From Sphingobacteriaceae bacterium (GTDB taxonomy: Bacteria; Bacillota; Sulfobacillia; Thermaerobacterales; RSA17), in NCBI GenBank assembly GCA_035303785.1, contig DATGRI010000002.1, positions 1-63,087 of the forward strand: a DNA stretch of 63,087 bases, read 5' to 3'. The position numbers and the translations under genes were made by a program. Every line of letters begins with the position of its first letter. Positions within the stretch are counted from its first letter, which is position 1. The notes under the pieces were generated by a model. It worked only from the letters and a program-made list of their open reading frames with translations, did no database searches and was not told the origin of the DNA. Below, in pieces: positions 32,260 through 40,158 of this stretch.

Positions 32260-33084
32260 TTAGGAAGTAGTAGCATCCTCTGCGGTGACGGCCAGGACGG
32301 CCTGCTCCCAGGCCTCCCCGGCCAGGGGCCCTTGCCCCTCTTCAGAAGCATAACCCCGCCGGAGCCAAAGGAAAAACTCCCGATTGCCGTCGGCCCCCAA
32401 AATGGGCGACGGGGTGACGCCCCATACTTGAAACCCTTCCCCTTGAGCGGCGGCGGCCACCTTGTGGAGCACTTCCCGGTGGACGGCAGGGTCCCGGACG
32501 ATGCCCCCCTTGCCTACGGCCTGGCGCCCCGCTTCAAACTGGGGCTTCACCAAAGGGAGCACCTCGCCCCGGGGCTGCAGGCACCGGGCCACGTTGGGCA
32601 GTACCAAGGTCAGGGAAATGAAGCTCAAGTCCAAGGTGATGAGGTCGGGCCGGGGATCCAGTTCCGCCGGGTCCAGGTGGCGCAGGTTGGTGCGCTCCAT
32701 GACCCGTACCCGGGGATCGTTGCGCAGGCGCCAGTCCAGCTGGCCGTAGCCCACGTCCACGGCATAGACCAGGGCGGCGCCCCGGGACAGAAGGCAGTCC
32801 ACGAACCCCCCGGTGGAGGCGCCGGCGTCCAGGGCCACCCGGCCGGCGGGGTCTACGCCGAACACGTCCAGGGCGTGGTTTAATTTGAGGCCGCCCCGGC
32901 TGACGAAGGGCAGGGGATCGGGCTTCACTTCCACCGCGGCGCCGGGAGGCACCCGGTAGCCCGCCTTGTCCACCTTCACCCCGTTGACCAGGACCCGCCC
33001 CGCCATGATGGCGCCCTGGGCCCGCTGCCGGCTGGGGAAGTAGCCCTGCTCCACCAGCCACACGTCCAGGCGCTGGGCTGTCAT
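32260..33084 (-). CDS. tlyA: TlyA family rRNA (cytidine-2'-O)-methyltransferase
   Basis: A 274-residue protein. An N-terminal S4 RNA-binding domain (RLDVWLVEQGYFPSRQRAQGAIMAGRVLVNG) is followed by an FtsJ-like methyltransferase with VSRGGLKLNHALDVFGVDPAGRVALDAGASTGGFVDCLLSRGA (SAM site; Asp-Ala-Gly-Ala-Ser-Thr-Gly-Gly), PDLITLDLSFISL and LVKPQFEAGR. TlyA 2'-O-methylates cytidines in 16S and 23S rRNA. Its place directly after dxs is the usual Firmicute order (dxs-tlyA-argR-recN), although here argR is 6.5 kb further on. Confidence 0.95.
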   Translation of the reverse strand: MTAQRLDVWLVEQGYFPSRQRAQGAIMAGRVLVNGVKVDKAGYRVPPGAAVEVKPDPLPFVSRGGLKLNHALDVFGVDPAGRVALDAGASTGGFVDCLLSRGAALVYAVDVGYGQLDWRLRNDPRVRVMERTNLRHLDPAELDPRPDLITLDLSFISLTLVLPNVARCLQPRGEVLPLVKPQFEAGRQAVGKGGIVRDPAVHREVLHKVAAAAQGEGFQVWGVTPSPILGADGNREFFLWLRRGYASEEGQGPLAGEAWEQAVLAVTAEDATTS

Positions 33085-33094
33085 GGCCCAATCC

Positions 33095-35026
33095 TCACCG
33101 GCCTACGGCGTCGGCCCGCCGGCGGGCCGGCCCCAACAGGGGCCTGCCGGCGGCGGCCAGGGCCTCCTCGGCCGCGGCGGCGATGCCCTCGGGCGTCAGG
33201 CCGAATTCTTCCAGAAAGCCGCCCACATCGCCGTGGGGAACGAACACGTCGGGCAGGCCCAGCCGCCGGACGACGGGGGTCAAGCCCCGGTCGGCCAGCA
33301 GCTCCAGCACCGCCGAGCCGAACCCGCCCTGGCGGGCCCCCTCCTCCACGGTGACGACGCAGTCCGCCCGGCCGATGACGTCCAGGAGCAGTTCCTCATC
33401 CAAGGGCTTGACGAAGCGGGCGTTGACCACGGCGGCGTCGATGCCCCCGGCCGCCAACTGCTCCGCCGCCGCCAGAGCCGGGTGGACCATGGAGCCGATG
33501 GCGATGATGGCCACATCGGCGCCCGGCCGCAGCAGTTCGCCCCGGCCGATGGGCAGGGGCTCCGGGGCCGGATCGGGCACGGCGCCGACACCGGCTCCCC
33601 GGGGGTAGCGGAGGGCGATGGGCCCCTCCTCGTACTGCCGGGCCGTCTCCAGCATGCGGGCGAATTCCTTTTCGTCCTTGGGGGCCATGACCACCATATT
33701 GGGAATGCAGCGCAGGTAGGCCATGTCGAAGGCCCCCTGGTGGGTTTCCCCGTCGGCGCCCACCAGGCCGGCCCGGTCGATGCAGAAGCGCACGGGCAGT
33801 TTTTGAATGGCCACGTCGTGGATGATCTGGTCGTAGGCCCGCTGCAGGAAGGTGGAATAGATGGCCACAAAGGGCTTCATGCCGCCGCAGGCCAGGCCGG
33901 CGCCGAAGGTGACGGCGTGCTGCTCGGCGATGCCCACGTCGTAAAAGCGGTCGGGATGGCGGGCCTGGAAACCCGTCAATCCGGTGCCGTCGGGCATGGC
34001 GGCGGTGATGGCCACGATCTTCTCGTCCTGCTCCGCCATGCGGGTCAAAGTCTCGCCGAAAATCTTGCTGTAGGACGGGGCCCCGCCGGACCGGCGCAGG
34101 GATTCCCCCGTCTCCACCTTGAAGGGGCCCGGACCGTGCCAGGTGACCGGATCCCCTTCGGCAAGACGGTAGCCCTTGCCCTTCTGGGTATGGGTGTGGA
34201 TGAGGACCGGCCCCTCCAGGCGCCGGGCGTGGCGCAGCACTTCCTCCACGGCGGCCAGGTCGTGGCCGTCCACGGGCCCCAGGTAGGTGAAGCCCAGCTG
34301 CTCGAAAAACATGCCCGGCACCAGCACCTGCTTCAAGCCGTCCTTCAGCCGCTCGGCGGTGCGCACGATCTGGGGACCCACCCGGGGAATGCTCCCCATG
34401 AGCCGCTCCAGGTCGTCCCGCAGCCGGGTGTACAGGGGCTCGGTGCGGATGCGGGTCAAATATTTGGCCAAAGCCCCCACGTTGGGGGCGATGGACATGG
34501 AGTTGTCGTTGAGGACTACGATCAAGTCGGTCTGGTCGTGGCCCGCATGGTTCAGGGCCTCGAAGGCCATGCCCCCCGTCAGCCCCGCGTCGCCCACCAC
34601 CACCACCACGTGGTGCTTCTCCCCCTGCCGGTCCCGGGCGGCGGCATAGCCCATGCCCGCCGACAGGGCGGTGCTGGCGTGGGCCACGCCGAAATGGTCA
34701 TGGGGGCTTTCCGCCCGCCGGGGAAAGCCGCTGAGGCCGCCCCGCTGCCGGATGGTGTGGAAGCGGTCCCGGCGGCCGGTGATCAATTTGTGGGGGTAGG
34801 TCTGGTGCCCCACGTCCCATATGATCTTGTCCCGCGGGCTGTCGAAAACGGTATGGAGGGCCAGAGTCAGTTCCACGGCGCCCAGGCCCGAGCCCAGGTG
34901 TCCGCCGGTCTTGGATATGGTCTCAAGGATCGTTTCCCGGATCTCCGTCGCCAGGGCCAGCTTCTCGGTGTGGCTCAACTTTTTCAAATCTTCGGGCCCG
35001 TTGACTCGGTCCAGGATGCGTGCCAC
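33095..35026 (-). CDS. dxs: 1-deoxy-D-xylulose-5-phosphate synthase
   Basis: About 643 residues from GTG 35026, which gives the normal N-terminus ARILDRVNGPEDLKKLSHTEK; the extra codons up to 35101 lie inside the upstream gene. The thiamine diphosphate site is GDAGLTGGMAFEALNHAG with NDNSMSI. GHQTYPHKLITGRRDRF, EQHAVTFGAGLACGGMKPFVAIYSTFLQRAYDQ and DRAGLVGADGETHQGAFD are also diagnostic. It makes DXP from pyruvate and glyceraldehyde 3-phosphate, the first step of the MEP isoprenoid pathway, feeding ispA upstream. It overlaps the oapA-like gene by about 100 bases. Confidence 0.97.
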   Translation of the reverse strand: MARILDRVNGPEDLKKLSHTEKLALATEIRETILETISKTGGHLGSGLGAVELTLALHTVFDSPRDKIIWDVGHQTYPHKLITGRRDRFHTIRQRGGLSGFPRRAESPHDHFGVAHASTALSAGMGYAAARDRQGEKHHVVVVVGDAGLTGGMAFEALNHAGHDQTDLIVVLNDNSMSIAPNVGALAKYLTRIRTEPLYTRLRDDLERLMGSIPRVGPQIVRTAERLKDGLKQVLVPGMFFEQLGFTYLGPVDGHDLAAVEEVLRHARRLEGPVLIHTHTQKGKGYRLAEGDPVTWHGPGPFKVETGESLRRSGGAPSYSKIFGETLTRMAEQDEKIVAITAAMPDGTGLTGFQARHPDRFYDVGIAEQHAVTFGAGLACGGMKPFVAIYSTFLQRAYDQIIHDVAIQKLPVRFCIDRAGLVGADGETHQGAFDMAYLRCIPNMVVMAPKDEKEFARMLETARQYEEGPIALRYPRGAGVGAVPDPAPEPLPIGRGELLRPGADVAIIAIGSMVHPALAAAEQLAAGGIDAAVVNARFVKPLDEELLLDVIGRADCVVTVEEGARQGGFGSAVLELLADRGLTPVVRRLGLPDVFVPHGDVGGFLEEFGLTPEGIAAAAEEALAAAGRPLLGPARRRADAVGR

Positions 35027-35702
35027 GCCTGCCCCACCTGCCTCCCTGCCGGCTCCCCCGGCCGGCTGCCTTATTACCCCTACTACCGGCGCCCTGGTCA
35101 TTCCTGCCGCTGCGGCCGACGGTGAAGCTGAACAGCCCCAGCCGCTCTACAACATACAGTGCCCGTCCCGCCGCCAGAACAATTCCCTGGGCCGACCGGA
35201 GGGCCGCCGCCTTGCCCAGAGCCTTGCCCCCCACCGTGAGCCCCGAAACCAGGGCCACCAGCAGCATGCCGGCGGCCAGCGGGTCCCAGCCGGGCCACAG
35301 GGCCGGCAGGCGCAGGGCGATGGCGGCGGCGGCGGCGCCCGACACGGTCCCGGCGGCATCGCCCACCACGTCGTTGCTGAAACTGCTCACCGCCGCCGCA
35401 TGGCGCACCAGCCAGATGGCCTGCCGGGACCCGGGCAGGCGCCGGGCGGCCATGGCGTGGAAGGGCGCCTCGTCGGCGGCTGCCGCGGCTACGCCCAGGA
35501 CGTCGAACAAGATGCCGATCAAAATGAGCACGACGATGGTGGCGACGCCGAAGACCAGGCTCAGCCGGTTGATGATCTGCTGGGCGGGATAGGTGGCTGT
35601 CAAGGCGATGATGAAGGTGAGCACACCCAGCACCATGGCCCGCAGCCAAGGGCTGCCCGGGCCTTTCCGGTTGCGGTTGCGGGACTGCCCACGTCGCGAC
35701 AA
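34923..35702 (-). CDS. oapA: OapA-like (OLE-associated) four-helix membrane protein
   Basis: About 259 residues. A basic N-terminus (MSRRGQSRNRNRKG) precedes hydrophobic segments VLGVLTFIIALTATY, IVVLILIGILFDVLGVAAAAADEAPFHAMAARRLPG, SSFSNDVVGDAAGTVSGAAAAAIALRL and LAAGMLLVALVSGLTVGG. The ILFDVLGVAAAAADEAPFHAMA block is like the CNNM/CorB magnesium-transport family, with which OapA shares similarity. In Bacillus halodurans oapA lies directly between OLE RNA and dxs and its product binds OLE RNA at the membrane; the same order is seen here. The start is TTG 35702 (AAGGTGA upstream) or ATG 35636. The last 58 or so codons form a basic tail overlapping dxs and may result from a frameshift. Confidence 0.8.
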   Translation of the reverse strand: MSRRGQSRNRNRKGPGSPWLRAMVLGVLTFIIALTATYPAQQIINRLSLVFGVATIVVLILIGILFDVLGVAAAAADEAPFHAMAARRLPGSRQAIWLVRHAAAVSSFSNDVVGDAAGTVSGAAAAAIALRLPALWPGWDPLAAGMLLVALVSGLTVGGKALGKAAALRSAQGIVLAAGRALYVVERLGLFSFTVGRSGRNDQGAGSRGNKAAGRGSRQGGRWGRRGTHPGPSQRARRFEKVEPHREAGPGDGDPGNDP

Positions 35703-35724
35703 ACCACTCACCTTCAAATACGGT

Positions 35725-36455
35725 GCAGGAACAGGGTGTGGAAAACAAACGGGGCAGGTGGTGCACATGCCAGGTAAACTTTGCGGCTTAGGTCCAGCAG
35801 GCTTTCCCGCGCGGCCACCGGGCGTCGCCGCCCCGGCGGTTTCCCTTTAAGGCCGGCCCCTTCGCTGGCTGAAATCCCAGGTCCACCGACACCGGGCTGG
35901 AGATGAGGGCGCTGGAACACCACTTAGCACACACTTTAATCCCTGGCATGCTTCCCCGGTGGGAACAGCCTAGAGGTTTTCCCAAACCAACCTGATCCCA
36001 TGCCTAGCCCTTTTTGCAGGACAGGTTTCGGCCCCAACGGAACGGCGGCTGGGCCCTTTGCCGCCGGCCGCTTGCCGGACCTTCCGCCTGCCCCACGCAG
36101 GGCGGGCTACACTGCACGAAGTCATCCCTCGAGCAGGTTCCTTCCCCAACCCGTAGCGAAGTCCCGTTCGGGAACTGCTTGCAAACTTCGTTGGAAGCAG
36201 GCTTCACCACGCAATTGGGCCTCCGCGGGGGCAGGGTCAACGCCTGCATGCCGTTGCAGATCGCCCCATCCCCCTTAACTCCCAGCACCGACCCCCGATT
36301 GGGCATCGGCAGCCGGCACCAGGAACTTCATCGATGTGCCCTTTGACGGATTTTTAGGCCCGCCTTCAGCACGGGCGGTTGGACTAGGATACTGCCACCA
36401 CCTGCCGAAAAATGGCGCAAAAATTCCGGCGGTACGGGAGCAAATCTAAGTCTCG
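35725..36455 (-). ncRNA. ole: OLE RNA (ornate large extremophilic RNA), ends approximate
   Basis: The 775 bases between ispA and the oapA-like gene carry no plausible protein gene and are visibly less GC-rich than the flanks. Position and order (asp23, nusB, folD, xseA, xseB, ispA, gap, oapA, dxs, tlyA) are those of OLE RNA loci. Many helices are visible on the minus strand: CCCG/CGGG near 36170; AGCAGTTCC (36179-36171) with GGAACCTGCT (36141-36132); CCGCCCTGC (36105-36097) with GCAGGCGG (36091-36084); GGCGGC (36065-36060) with GCCGCC (36049-36044). The expected OLE length is about 600 nt. A promoter ends just before the 5' side. OLE forms a membrane complex with OapA and is tied to stress tolerance. 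I could not align to the Rfam model. Confidence 0.82.
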
Positions 36456-36461
36456 AGCCTC

Positions 36462-36470
36462 ATTATAGCA
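36462..36470 (-). promoter_or_regulatory. Extended -10 promoter for OLE RNA
   Basis: On the minus strand TGCTATAAT is a perfect extended -10 element (TGnTATAAT), eight bases past the ispA stop. The -35 position (CCGGGA) does not match, as is common for extended -10 promoters. Transcription would begin near 36455, so OLE could be made both from this start and by read-through from ispA. Confidence 0.6.
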
Positions 36471-36477
36471 CAAGGGA

Positions 36478-37395
36478 TCAGTGGTCCCGGGCCGCCACGA
36501 AATGCACCAGTTCGGCCAGGGCGCGGCCGGCGGCGCCGAAGGGTGACAGGGCTCCCAAGGCTTGGTCCACCAGGGCCGCGGCCCGCTCCCGGGCGGCTGC
36601 CAGGCCGTGGATGCTGGTAAAGGTGGCCTTGCCCCGGTCCCGGTCCCGGCCCCGGGGCCGGCCCATGCGGGCGGCGTCGCCCACCTCGTCCAGCACGTCG
36701 TCGATGATCTGGAAAGCCAGGCCGAAGGCCTCGCCGTAGGTGGTCAAGGCTCCCAGTTTTTGCGGATCGGCTTGGGCGATGATGCCGCCGATGCGGGCGC
36801 AGGCGGTGAACAAGGCGCCCGTCTTGGCCCGGTGGATGCGCTCCAGGGCGGGGCCGTCGATCTGCCGGCCCTCGGCGGCCAGGTCCTCCACCTGGCCGGC
36901 GATGAGCCCGCGCCAGCCGGCGGCTTGGGCCAATTCGGCCGTCACGTCCACCGTGGTCTGGGCGCCGCACAGGGCAGGCAGTTGGCCGGCCACCAGGTCG
37001 AAGGCCAAGGTGAGGAGGGCGTCGCCCACCAGGATGGCCGTGGCCTCGCCGTACACCACGTGGACCGTGGGGCGGCCCCGGCGCAGGTCGTCGTCGTCCA
37101 TGGCGGGCAGGTCGTCGTGAACCAGGGAGTAGGTGTGGATCAGCTCCACAGCGGCGGCCGCGGGGAGGGCCGTGCGGGGATCGCCCCCGGCGGCCTCGCA
37201 GGCGGCCATGACCAGGACGGGCCGCATCCGCTTGCCGGGGCCGAAAACGGCGTAGCGCATGGCCTCGGCCAGGGAGGCCGGGACGCCGTGGTCGGCGGCC
37301 AGCCGCTCCCGCAGGTACTCGTCCACGGCGGCCACCGTGCGCTTGTACCAAAGCCGCTCGGTGAGGGGCTGGGCGCTATCCCGTGGCTGCTTCAT
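36478..37395 (-). CDS. ispA: Polyprenyl (farnesyl) diphosphate synthase
   Basis: About 305 residues from ATG 37395. AMRYAVFGPGKRMRPVLVMAACEAAGG (isopentenyl diphosphate site), the first Asp-rich motif LVHDDLPAMDDDDLRRGRPTVH, HRAKTGALFTACARIGG, and the second Asp-rich motif FQIIDDVLDEVGD are all clear. It condenses C5 units to farnesyl or geranylgeranyl diphosphate for quinones and undecaprenyl phosphate. It overlaps xseB by 20 bases. The partner pathway gene dxs follows after OLE RNA and oapA. Confidence 0.95.
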   Translation of the reverse strand: MKQPRDSAQPLTERLWYKRTVAAVDEYLRERLAADHGVPASLAEAMRYAVFGPGKRMRPVLVMAACEAAGGDPRTALPAAAAVELIHTYSLVHDDLPAMDDDDLRRGRPTVHVVYGEATAILVGDALLTLAFDLVAGQLPALCGAQTTVDVTAELAQAAGWRGLIAGQVEDLAAEGRQIDGPALERIHRAKTGALFTACARIGGIIAQADPQKLGALTTYGEAFGLAFQIIDDVLDEVGDAARMGRPRGRDRDRGKATFTSIHGLAAARERAAALVDQALGALSPFGAAGRALAELVHFVAARDH

Positions 37396-37666
37396 CGGCG
37401 GGCACCAGCACCACGTCGTCGTTTTGGGTGATGAGCAGCTGGATCTTCCCTTCGGCCTCGTCCAAGCGCCGGCGGCAGTGGCGGGCCAGCCCCACGCCCG
37501 TTTCAAAGAGGGCCAGGGCCTGATCCAAGGTCAAGTCGCCCTGCTCCAGCTGCTCCACCACTTTGGTCAGTTCAGCCAGGGCTTCTTCGAAGGAAAGGTC
37601 CAGTTCTCCCGCCCCGGCGCCGGCCTGGGCTTCCTGGGGCGTGTTGGGAGCCGCTTCCCCGCTCAT
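37376..37666 (-). CDS. xseB: Exodeoxyribonuclease VII small subunit
   Basis: A 96-residue protein with the family core DLSFEEALAELTKVVEQLEQGDLTLDQALALFETGVGLARHCRRRLDEAEGKIQLL; both ends are variable and acidic. It forms a complex of several copies with one XseA. Start ATG 37666 overlaps the xseA stop in ATGA. Confidence 0.95.
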   Translation of the reverse strand: MSGEAAPNTPQEAQAGAGAGELDLSFEEALAELTKVVEQLEQGDLTLDQALALFETGVGLARHCRRRLDEAEGKIQLLITQNDDVVLVPADEAATG

Positions 37667-38895
37667 GGCTGACCTTCCTTTCCTCCGGCCTCCCGGCGGC
37701 CGGTCACCGTGCAGGTGAGGCTGCCGTGGGCCAAGGTGACGGTTACGGCGTCACCGACGGCCACCTGGTCATAGCGCCGGATGATCTTGCCGTCCTCTTC
37801 ACGCTGGGTCACGCTGTATCCCCGGGCCAGAACCGCCAAGGGGCTCAAGGCCTCCAGCCGCCCCACCAAGGACTGGAACCGGGCCCGGCGGCGCTCCAGC
37901 AAGGTGTTTATGCCCTGCAGGCTTTGGCGGGCCAGGTCGTCCACCTCTTGCCAGGCCGTCAGGATGAGGTGGGTGGGACGCTGGAACACGGGACCCGCCA
38001 TAAGCCGCTCCAGGCGGCGGCGCTCGTTGAGCCACCGGTTGCGCAGGGCCTGCTGCAGCCGGGTGACGGAATTCGCCAAAACCCGCCCCAATTCCCCTTC
38101 GTCGGGCACCACCAGCATGGCCGCCGCCGTGGGTGTGGGGGCCCTGACGTCGGCGACGAAATCGGCGATGGTGAAGTCGGTTTCATGGCCCACCGCCGAC
38201 ACCACCGGCGTCCGGGCGGCGTGGATGGCCCGGGCCACCACTTCTTCGTTGAAGGCCCACAAGTCCTCCAGGGAGCCGCCGCCCCGGCCCACGATGATGA
38301 CGTCCACATCGCCGTGCCGGTCCAGGAGGGTGATGCCCCGGGCGATCTCCTGGGCCGCCCCCTCCCCCTGCACCGCCACCGGGCAGAGGACCAGATCGAT
38401 GCGGGGAAAGCGGCGCCGGGCCACTTTAATTATGTCCTGGACGGCGGCGCCGGTGGGGGATGTGACGATGCCCACCCGGCGGGGCAGGGACGGCAGGGGC
38501 TTTTTCAACTCCTGGGCGAAGAGCCCCTCGGCCTCCAGGCGCCGCTTCAACTGCTCGAAGGCGGCGTACAGGGCCCCCACCCCAGCGGGCTCCATGTGCT
38601 CCACGTAAAGCTGGTAGACGCCGTCCCGCTCGTACAGGCCGATGTAGCCGGCGGCCAGCACCTCCATGCCGTCCTCAGGCTGGAAGGCCAGGGAACGGTT
38701 GGCGCCCCGGAACATGACGCAGCGCAGGGCCGCCCCGTCGTCCTTCAAGGTGAAGTACATGTGGCCCGAGGAGGGCCGGCGGAAGTTGGAGATCTCGCCC
38801 CGGACCCATACTTCCTGGAGCACGGGGTCGCCCGCCAGGAGATTTTTCAGGTAGTTGGTCAGCTGGGTGACGGTCAGGTGCTGCCGTGGAGCCAT
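37663..38895 (-). CDS. xseA: Exodeoxyribonuclease VII large subunit
   Basis: About 410 residues from ATG 38895, inside the end of folD (22-base overlap); the open frame further upstream is a shadow. The OB-fold N-terminus is LTVTQLTNYLKNLLAGDPVLQEVWVRGEISNFRRPSSGHMYFTLKD. The catalytic domain has VGIVTSPTGAAVQDI, VIIVGRGGGSLEDLWAFNEE, VVSAVGHETDFTIADFVADVRAPTPTAAA, and the C-terminal LARGYSVTQREEDGKII. It degrades single-stranded DNA from both ends into oligonucleotides. Normal position between folD and xseB. Confidence 0.96.
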   Translation of the reverse strand: MAPRQHLTVTQLTNYLKNLLAGDPVLQEVWVRGEISNFRRPSSGHMYFTLKDDGAALRCVMFRGANRSLAFQPEDGMEVLAAGYIGLYERDGVYQLYVEHMEPAGVGALYAAFEQLKRRLEAEGLFAQELKKPLPSLPRRVGIVTSPTGAAVQDIIKVARRRFPRIDLVLCPVAVQGEGAAQEIARGITLLDRHGDVDVIIVGRGGGSLEDLWAFNEEVVARAIHAARTPVVSAVGHETDFTIADFVADVRAPTPTAAAMLVVPDEGELGRVLANSVTRLQQALRNRWLNERRRLERLMAGPVFQRPTHLILTAWQEVDDLARQSLQGINTLLERRRARFQSLVGRLEALSPLAVLARGYSVTQREEDGKIIRRYDQVAVGDAVTVTLAHGSLTCTVTGRREAGGKEGQP

Positions 38896-39734
38896 CGGGC
38901 TGCATCCAAGGTGTTCTGCAGGAGCATGGCCACCGTCATGGGCCCCACGCCGCCGGGCACGGGGGTGATGGCCCCCGCAACCGCCGATGCCGAGGCGAAG
39001 TCCACGTCGCCGGCCAGCTTCCCGTCGGGGGTGCGGTTCATGCCCACATCGACCACCACGGCCCCGGGCTTCACCATGGGGCCATCCACCAGGTGGAGCC
39101 GTCCCGCCGCCACCACCAGCAGGTCGGCCCGGCGGGTGTGGTCCGCCAGGTTTTCCGTCCGGGAGTGGCAGATGGTGACGGTGGCGTGGTTGTTCACCAG
39201 CAGGGCAGCCATGGGTTTGCCCACGATGCGGCTGCGGCCGATGACCACTGCGTGGCGGCCGGCCACCTGGATGTCGTAGGCCGCCAGGAGCTGCATGATG
39301 CCGGTCGGCGTGGCCGGCACGTGGGCCCGGCGGCCGGCCACCGCCAGCCCCACGTTGTGGGGGTGGAAGCCGTCCACGTCCTTGCGGGGGTCCAGGGCGT
39401 CGATCAAAGCGTCGTAGTCGATCTGGGCGGGAACGGGCCATTGGACGATGACCCCGTGGACCCGGGGGTCGTCGTTGAGGGCCTGGATGCGGGCCGCCAC
39501 TTCCTCATGGGCCGCATCGGCGGGGAAATGGTGCAGGCGGCCGTCGATGCCCGCCTCCTGACAGGCCTTGATCTTGGTGTTCACGTAAACCTGGGAGGCC
39601 GGGTCGTCGCCGATGAGGATGATGGCCAGCCCCGGCGTCGTGCCGGTTTGGGCGGAAAAGGCCTCAACCTGTTGTTTGATCTCCTGCCGCACCCGGGCGG
39701 CGGTTTCCCGGCCGTTGAGAAGGAGAGCCGACAC
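38874..39734 (-). CDS. folD: Bifunctional methylenetetrahydrofolate dehydrogenase / cyclohydrolase FolD
   Basis: A 286-residue enzyme. Landmarks are LAIILIGDDPASQVYVNTKIKACQEAGI (catalytic Lys region), GVIVQWPVPAQIDYDALIDALDPRKDVDGFHPHNVG (the usual VQLPLP is VQWPVP), HAVVIGRSRIVGKPMAALL and TPVPGGVGPMTVAMLLQNTL. It interconverts 5,10-methylene-THF and 10-formyl-THF for purine and fMet synthesis; glyA elsewhere in the window supplies methylene-THF. Start GTG 39734, seven bases after the nusB stop. Confidence 0.95.
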   Translation of the reverse strand: MSALLLNGRETAARVRQEIKQQVEAFSAQTGTTPGLAIILIGDDPASQVYVNTKIKACQEAGIDGRLHHFPADAAHEEVAARIQALNDDPRVHGVIVQWPVPAQIDYDALIDALDPRKDVDGFHPHNVGLAVAGRRAHVPATPTGIMQLLAAYDIQVAGRHAVVIGRSRIVGKPMAALLVNNHATVTICHSRTENLADHTRRADLLVVAAGRLHLVDGPMVKPGAVVVDVGMNRTPDGKLAGDVDFASASAVAGAITPVPGGVGPMTVAMLLQNTLDAARWLHGST

Positions 39735-39741
39735 CTCTCAA

Positions 39742-40158
39742 TCACACCCTCGGTGCCGGATCCCGCTGTTCACGGGCCAGCTGGCCCAAAATGCCGTTGA
39801 TGAACCGAGCGGCCTCCGGCGTACTGAATGTCTTTGCCAATTCCACTGCTTCGTTGATGGCCACGCTGACGGGAACGTCGTGGCGGTGGATGATCTCATA
39901 GGCGGCCAGCCGCAGGATGTTCCGGTCGATGACGGCCATGCGCTCCACCCGCCAGTCCACCGCCAGGCGGGTGACGTGGTCGTCCAGTTCCTGCTTGTGC
40001 CGGGCGATGCCCGCCACCAGTTCGGCGCTGAAGCCGTCGGCCCGGCCCACGCCGGCCTCGGCCAGGGCCCGCTCCAGGATGGCTGTCAGGTCGCCCCCGG
40101 TGATGTCCCACTGGTACAAGGCCAGCAGGGCGATGATGCGCTCCTGGCGGCGGCTCAC
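39742..40158 (-). CDS. nusB: Transcription antitermination factor NusB
   Basis: A 138-residue all-helical protein: RRQERIIALLALYQWDITGGD, VAGIARHKQELDDHVTRLAVDWRVERMAVIDRNILRLAAYEIIHRHDVPVSVAINEAVELAKTFSTPEAARFINGILGQLAR. This is the complete NusB pattern including the C-terminal FINGIL. It binds boxA RNA with NusE during rRNA transcription. The start GTG 40158 overlaps the DUF2273 stop in GTGA. Confidence 0.96.
   Translation of the reverse strand: MSRRQERIIALLALYQWDITGGDLTAILERALAEAGVGRADGFSAELVAGIARHKQELDDHVTRLAVDWRVERMAVIDRNILRLAAYEIIHRHDVPVSVAINEAVELAKTFSTPEAARFINGILGQLAREQRDPAPRV

Follow-up and report, generated by a model that had tools for sequence, protein, structure and literature searches.

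The window (the whole stretch of 63,087 nucleotides that was analyzed) contains a complete, ordinary OLE RNA locus of the known family, from which nothing departs except a C-terminal run-on of OapA. OLE is a large bacterial RNA located at the cell membrane together with partner proteins, and in Halalkalibacterium halodurans the OLE complex is required for tolerance of cold, alcohol and high Mg2+ and for coping with poor carbon sources. Because the genome also encodes all of its partners, the RNA is regarded here as a well-confirmed yet ordinary family member, and the locus is almost certainly a canonical OLE ribonucleoprotein locus that would work as in H. halodurans. On balance, we also favor the view that OLE genes of different families generally have a private extended -10 promoter immediately upstream that is maintained by selection, this locus being one instance.

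The initial annotation had assigned the region between ispA and oapA to OLE RNA from synteny and structure, and had proposed a covariance-model search of the minus strand with Rfam model RF01071. This search, performed using cmscan, returned a full-length match (424.1 bits, E = 3.9e-122, against a gathering score of 50) that bears out the assignment together with the operon order (Table 1). OLE was the sole match in the whole window when all Rfam families were searched, and a genome search gave a single copy across the whole genome. The gap, previously put at ∼775 bases, measures 766 bases from the ispA stop (36478) to the oapA GTG (35711), and the earlier coordinates proved accurate to within a few bases. 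Its description as less GC-rich and rich in stems held: the OLE RNA is 62.7% GC compared with 69.3% for the window, a value this low is found in 24 of 625 sliding windows of the stretch, and folding was better than for all 20 dinucleotide-shuffled sequences (z = −2.4). Small ORFs within OLE (100 and 110 amino acids) were rejected as genes. They have no counterparts of the same length or in the same place in relatives, and the gap is thus gene-free apart from the RNA, as had been claimed.

Table 1. Positions in the window of the OLE RNA gene, its promoter element and neighboring genes.
Feature	Position	Strand	Details
ORF containing xseA (residues 190-580)	37663..39441	-	NCBIfam TIGR00237, 3.1e-153
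xseB, exonuclease VII small subunit	37376..37666	-	Pfam Exonuc_VII_S, 2.5e-21
ispA-like polyprenyl synthetase ORF, upstream OLE neighbor	36478..37506	-	Pfam polyprenyl_synt, 1.4e-57
Extended -10 element TGCTATAAT	36462..36470	-	Sole TGNTATAAT in 63 kb
OLE RNA gene	35742..36417	-	Full length, 676 nt, RF01071 model positions 1-616, cmscan
oapA, 262-aa membrane protein	34926..35711	-	GTG 35711; stop codon 34925-34923
dxs ORF	33095..35101	-	Pfam DXP_synthase_N, 2.2e-121
tlyA-like S4 + FtsJ rRNA methyltransferase	32260..33084	-	Pfam FtsJ, 5.8e-46; S4, 2.3e-15

To compare loops, the window OLE was examined alongside 155 other OLE sequences. The dimer-contact loops are intact (L4 UAAAAA, L5 GCCCA and L6 GGC), as is the P13 loop GGCGAC, which is the OapB site. 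Loop L9.3 of the window RNA, within 36030-36080 of the minus strand, is the self-complementary GGGCCC. Restricting the count to the 138 sequences long enough to judge, a central palindromic hexamer is found in L9.3 of 119 relatives, compared with 24% in shuffles. A test accepting any four-base palindrome was rejected as too loose (53% of shuffles), and hexamers were used instead. The palindromes vary by species (for example GGGCCC, GAGCTC, GGCGCC and GGTACC), with inner four bases that read GGCC, AGCT, GCGC, GTAC or GATC. These inner-base changes support an intermolecular contact because pairing within a four-base loop cannot explain them. Note that the outer pair could close a hairpin within one molecule, so that the evidence comes solely from changes at the four inner positions (AGCT, GCGC, GTAC and GATC). 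The variation agrees with the kissing contact between OLE molecules seen by cryo-EM (PMC12286853), and the alternative palindromes provide sequence support for a loop-loop contact between OLE molecules that is independent of the cryo-EM structures. At the level of primary sequence, the window RNA has the elements that form the cryo-EM dimer contacts, and these are conserved in sets of 138-156 sequences.

The extended -10 promoter site that had been claimed for the locus, TGCTATAAT, is present. Counting both strands of the window, TGNTATAAT occurs once, where 0.09 occurrences are expected. From the end of TGCTATAAT to OLE model position 1 there are 45 bases, and transcription would be expected to start near 36455, leaving ∼38 nt ahead of model position 1. 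No -35 element accompanies TGCTATAAT (at best, 2 of 6 positions match) and no two-hexamer promoter was found, so the term “extended -10” is apt. Counts across species were made with 150 genomes that have sufficient upstream sequence, which are related and should not be read as independent events, and which come from many families. An exact TGNTATAAT lies no more than 110 bases upstream of OLE in 79 of these. By comparison, five control windows farther upstream have it in 0 or 1 of 150 genomes, shuffled sequences in about 1, and neither the opposite strand nor OLE itself in any. Dedicated extended -10 promoters are therefore common among OLE genes. Most -10 elements start between 5 and 66 bases before OLE, with a median of 16 and a value of 50 for the window, and TGNTATAAT is combined with a -35 element (at least 4 of 6, spaced by 16-18 bases) in 64 genomes and in none of the controls.

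Relatives of the same family and the same order do not have TGCTATAAT at the corresponding place, so the promoter is backed across families and not locally. This, along with the missing -35 element, is what could be expected if TGCTATAAT were a chance match and OLE were made solely from the upstream operon promoter. We consider such a coincidence unlikely given that the element is unique in 63 kb, that the exact element precedes OLE genes far more often than it occurs in the control regions or on the other strand, and that a passage of PMC9723947 reports an own promoter for H. halodurans ole. A private ole promoter is not new in view of that report, and the count across genomes widens it from a single species to many families. 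If the private promoter is indeed general, the level of OLE would be set separately from the housekeeping operon that surrounds it.

Pfam, NCBIfam and profile matches confirmed the order xseA-xseB-ispA-OLE-oapA-dxs-tlyA given in the initial annotation, and the full order on the same strand is amaP-nusB-folD-xseA-xseB-ispA-OLE-oapA-dxs-tlyA. Farther upstream in the window is a spoIIIAG-like gene, whose score of 105.9 bits is lower than the NCBI cut-off of 147.7. The description of the host as a putative spore former is based on this gene. Translation of ispA probably begins downstream of the first start codon of its ORF, which overlaps xseB, and, judging from the sequence, the true start of dxs is probably a GTG near 35025. 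A search of the minus strand from 33000 to 40000 gave no site resembling an intrinsic terminator, and OLE is therefore probably part of a transcript entering oapA that would need 3′ processing. Read-through into oapA and 3′ processing of OLE have been reported in H. halodurans (PMC11332333).

An RNA that directly precedes oapA with no terminator in between might also be no more than the long and structured 5′ leader of oapA-dxs, a riboswitch-like regulator in cis instead of a trans-acting RNA. This seems very improbable, as H. halodurans OLE is a stable, abundant and trans-acting RNA (PMC9723947, PMC12265935). Moreover, oapA is directly downstream of OLE in 147 of 154 loci and not next after it in the other seven, and three of the genomes concerned carry oapA on another contig, which rules out a general cis function with respect to oapA.

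The ORF following OLE had been described as a CNNM/CorB-like membrane protein, and profile, motif and predicted fold agree on this point. It has no Pfam or NCBIfam name, but scores 237.7 bits with an OapA profile derived from 112 ORFs that adjoin OLE in other genomes, the window ORF being left out. The product carries the DxxxD motif (D114 and D118, both invariant) that is named as a distinctive OapA feature (PMC11332333). AlphaFold predicts a helical core at residues about 21-195 with pLDDT >90, followed by a tail with pLDDT <60. The six best PDB matches of the predicted fold are all CNNM/CorB/CorC proteins with MtCorB first, where the best E value is 0.0099 (below the usual cut-off) and the probability is 1.00 for the first four matches. 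Among 41 relatives, OLE and OapA are both present in 36 and both absent in 5.

The resemblance of OapA to the CNNM/CorB/MpfA Mg2+ transporters lies in its predicted fold, which is similar to the transmembrane domains of MtCorB (7m1t, 7m1u) and CorC (7cff, 7cfg), and in the weak Pfam CNNM matches of OLE-adjacent OapA proteins from some relatives. In contrast, a CNNM/MpfA transporter is recognized by a CNNM domain that exceeds the Pfam cut-off and precedes CBS and CorC domains, whereas the 262-residue window protein has no Pfam CNNM match, neither of these domains nor any further one, and does have the DxxxD motif. The CNNM link is supported by the fold search, though a profile comparison of the window OapA with the MpfA-like protein of the same genome gave no match. 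This MpfA-like protein is the one separate CNNM-CBS protein encoded by the genome, in agreement with a report that species carrying OLE generally have no more than one of the MpfA kind (PMC11332333). The oapA ORF overruns the end seen in relatives by ∼60 residues, into the start of dxs (34923-35120, minus strand), which may be due to a one-base frameshift from sequencing or assembly or to a lost stop codon.

Candidates for the other partners were found in the same genome. The OapB candidate is a 113-aa KOW-type protein encoded just upstream of infA, with a match to the solved “OLE-associated protein B” (PDB 7k9b, E = 6.5e-10), the OapC candidate is an 84-aa L7Ae-like protein encoded just upstream of rpsL that matches YbxF 4lck (E = 2e-16), and ribosomal protein bS21 is present; all three are encoded outside the OLE locus. 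The locus extends the known OLE systems by a complete one from a GC-rich lineage, with every known partner gene identifiable. It shares with the H. halodurans OLE ribonucleoprotein the full-length RNA model, the order ispA-OLE-oapA-dxs, an OapA with DxxxD, the genes for OapB, OapC and bS21, and the private ole promoter. It differs in the higher GC content (63%) of its OLE, in the greater length of the RNA (676 nt), which has insertions in two variable hairpins, and in the possible C-terminal run-on of OapA. Insertions in variable hairpins are also present in some relatives of the class, whose OLE RNAs are 665-682 nt long.

The sequence itself establishes what the RNA is, the gene order, the partner genes, the promoter sequence and the conservation of the contact loops; that the window OLE is transcribed, processed, bound to the membrane and active under stress would be expected from its family. 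The extended -10 promoter just after ispA would give rise to a transcript beginning ∼38 nt before OLE and extending through OLE into oapA and dxs, and OLE would be excised from this longer transcript. The RNA would then dimerize via the conserved L4, L5/L6 and L9.3 contacts and be anchored to the membrane through an OapA dimer, with OapB (at the P13 loop), OapC (at a k-turn) and bS21 presumably folding or stabilizing it as in H. halodurans.

OLE is common in this lineage, being detected in 217 of the 299 genomes sampled from the phylum and in 100 of the 151 from the class, and has been reported from 2,822 Bacillota genomes (PMC11332333). The 424-bit score of the window OLE is lower than most scores of the phylum (many are 480-578 bits), and this, together with the abnormal C-terminal tail of oapA, might suggest a degenerate or non-expressed remnant. 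We give this reading hardly any weight, since similar scores are normal within the class, the model match is full length, the contact loops and protein sites are all intact, and every partner gene is present in the genome.

Several minor observations were made during these searches. One family of the class (f3; G128, G324 and others) is apparently without OLE in the sampled genomes. In G128 and G324, OapA is also absent and each genome has a strong CNNM-family match. Among the matches listed in a dxs search, OLE is upstream of dxs at at least five loci. The OLE loci without oapA directly downstream are L119, L122, L125, L132, L137, L225 and L236, and oapA is on a different contig from OLE in G303, G319 and G325. 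In one example of oapA located away from OLE (L279:1363-2100, minus strand), the gene is between FeS oxidoreductase and oligopeptide ABC transporter genes.
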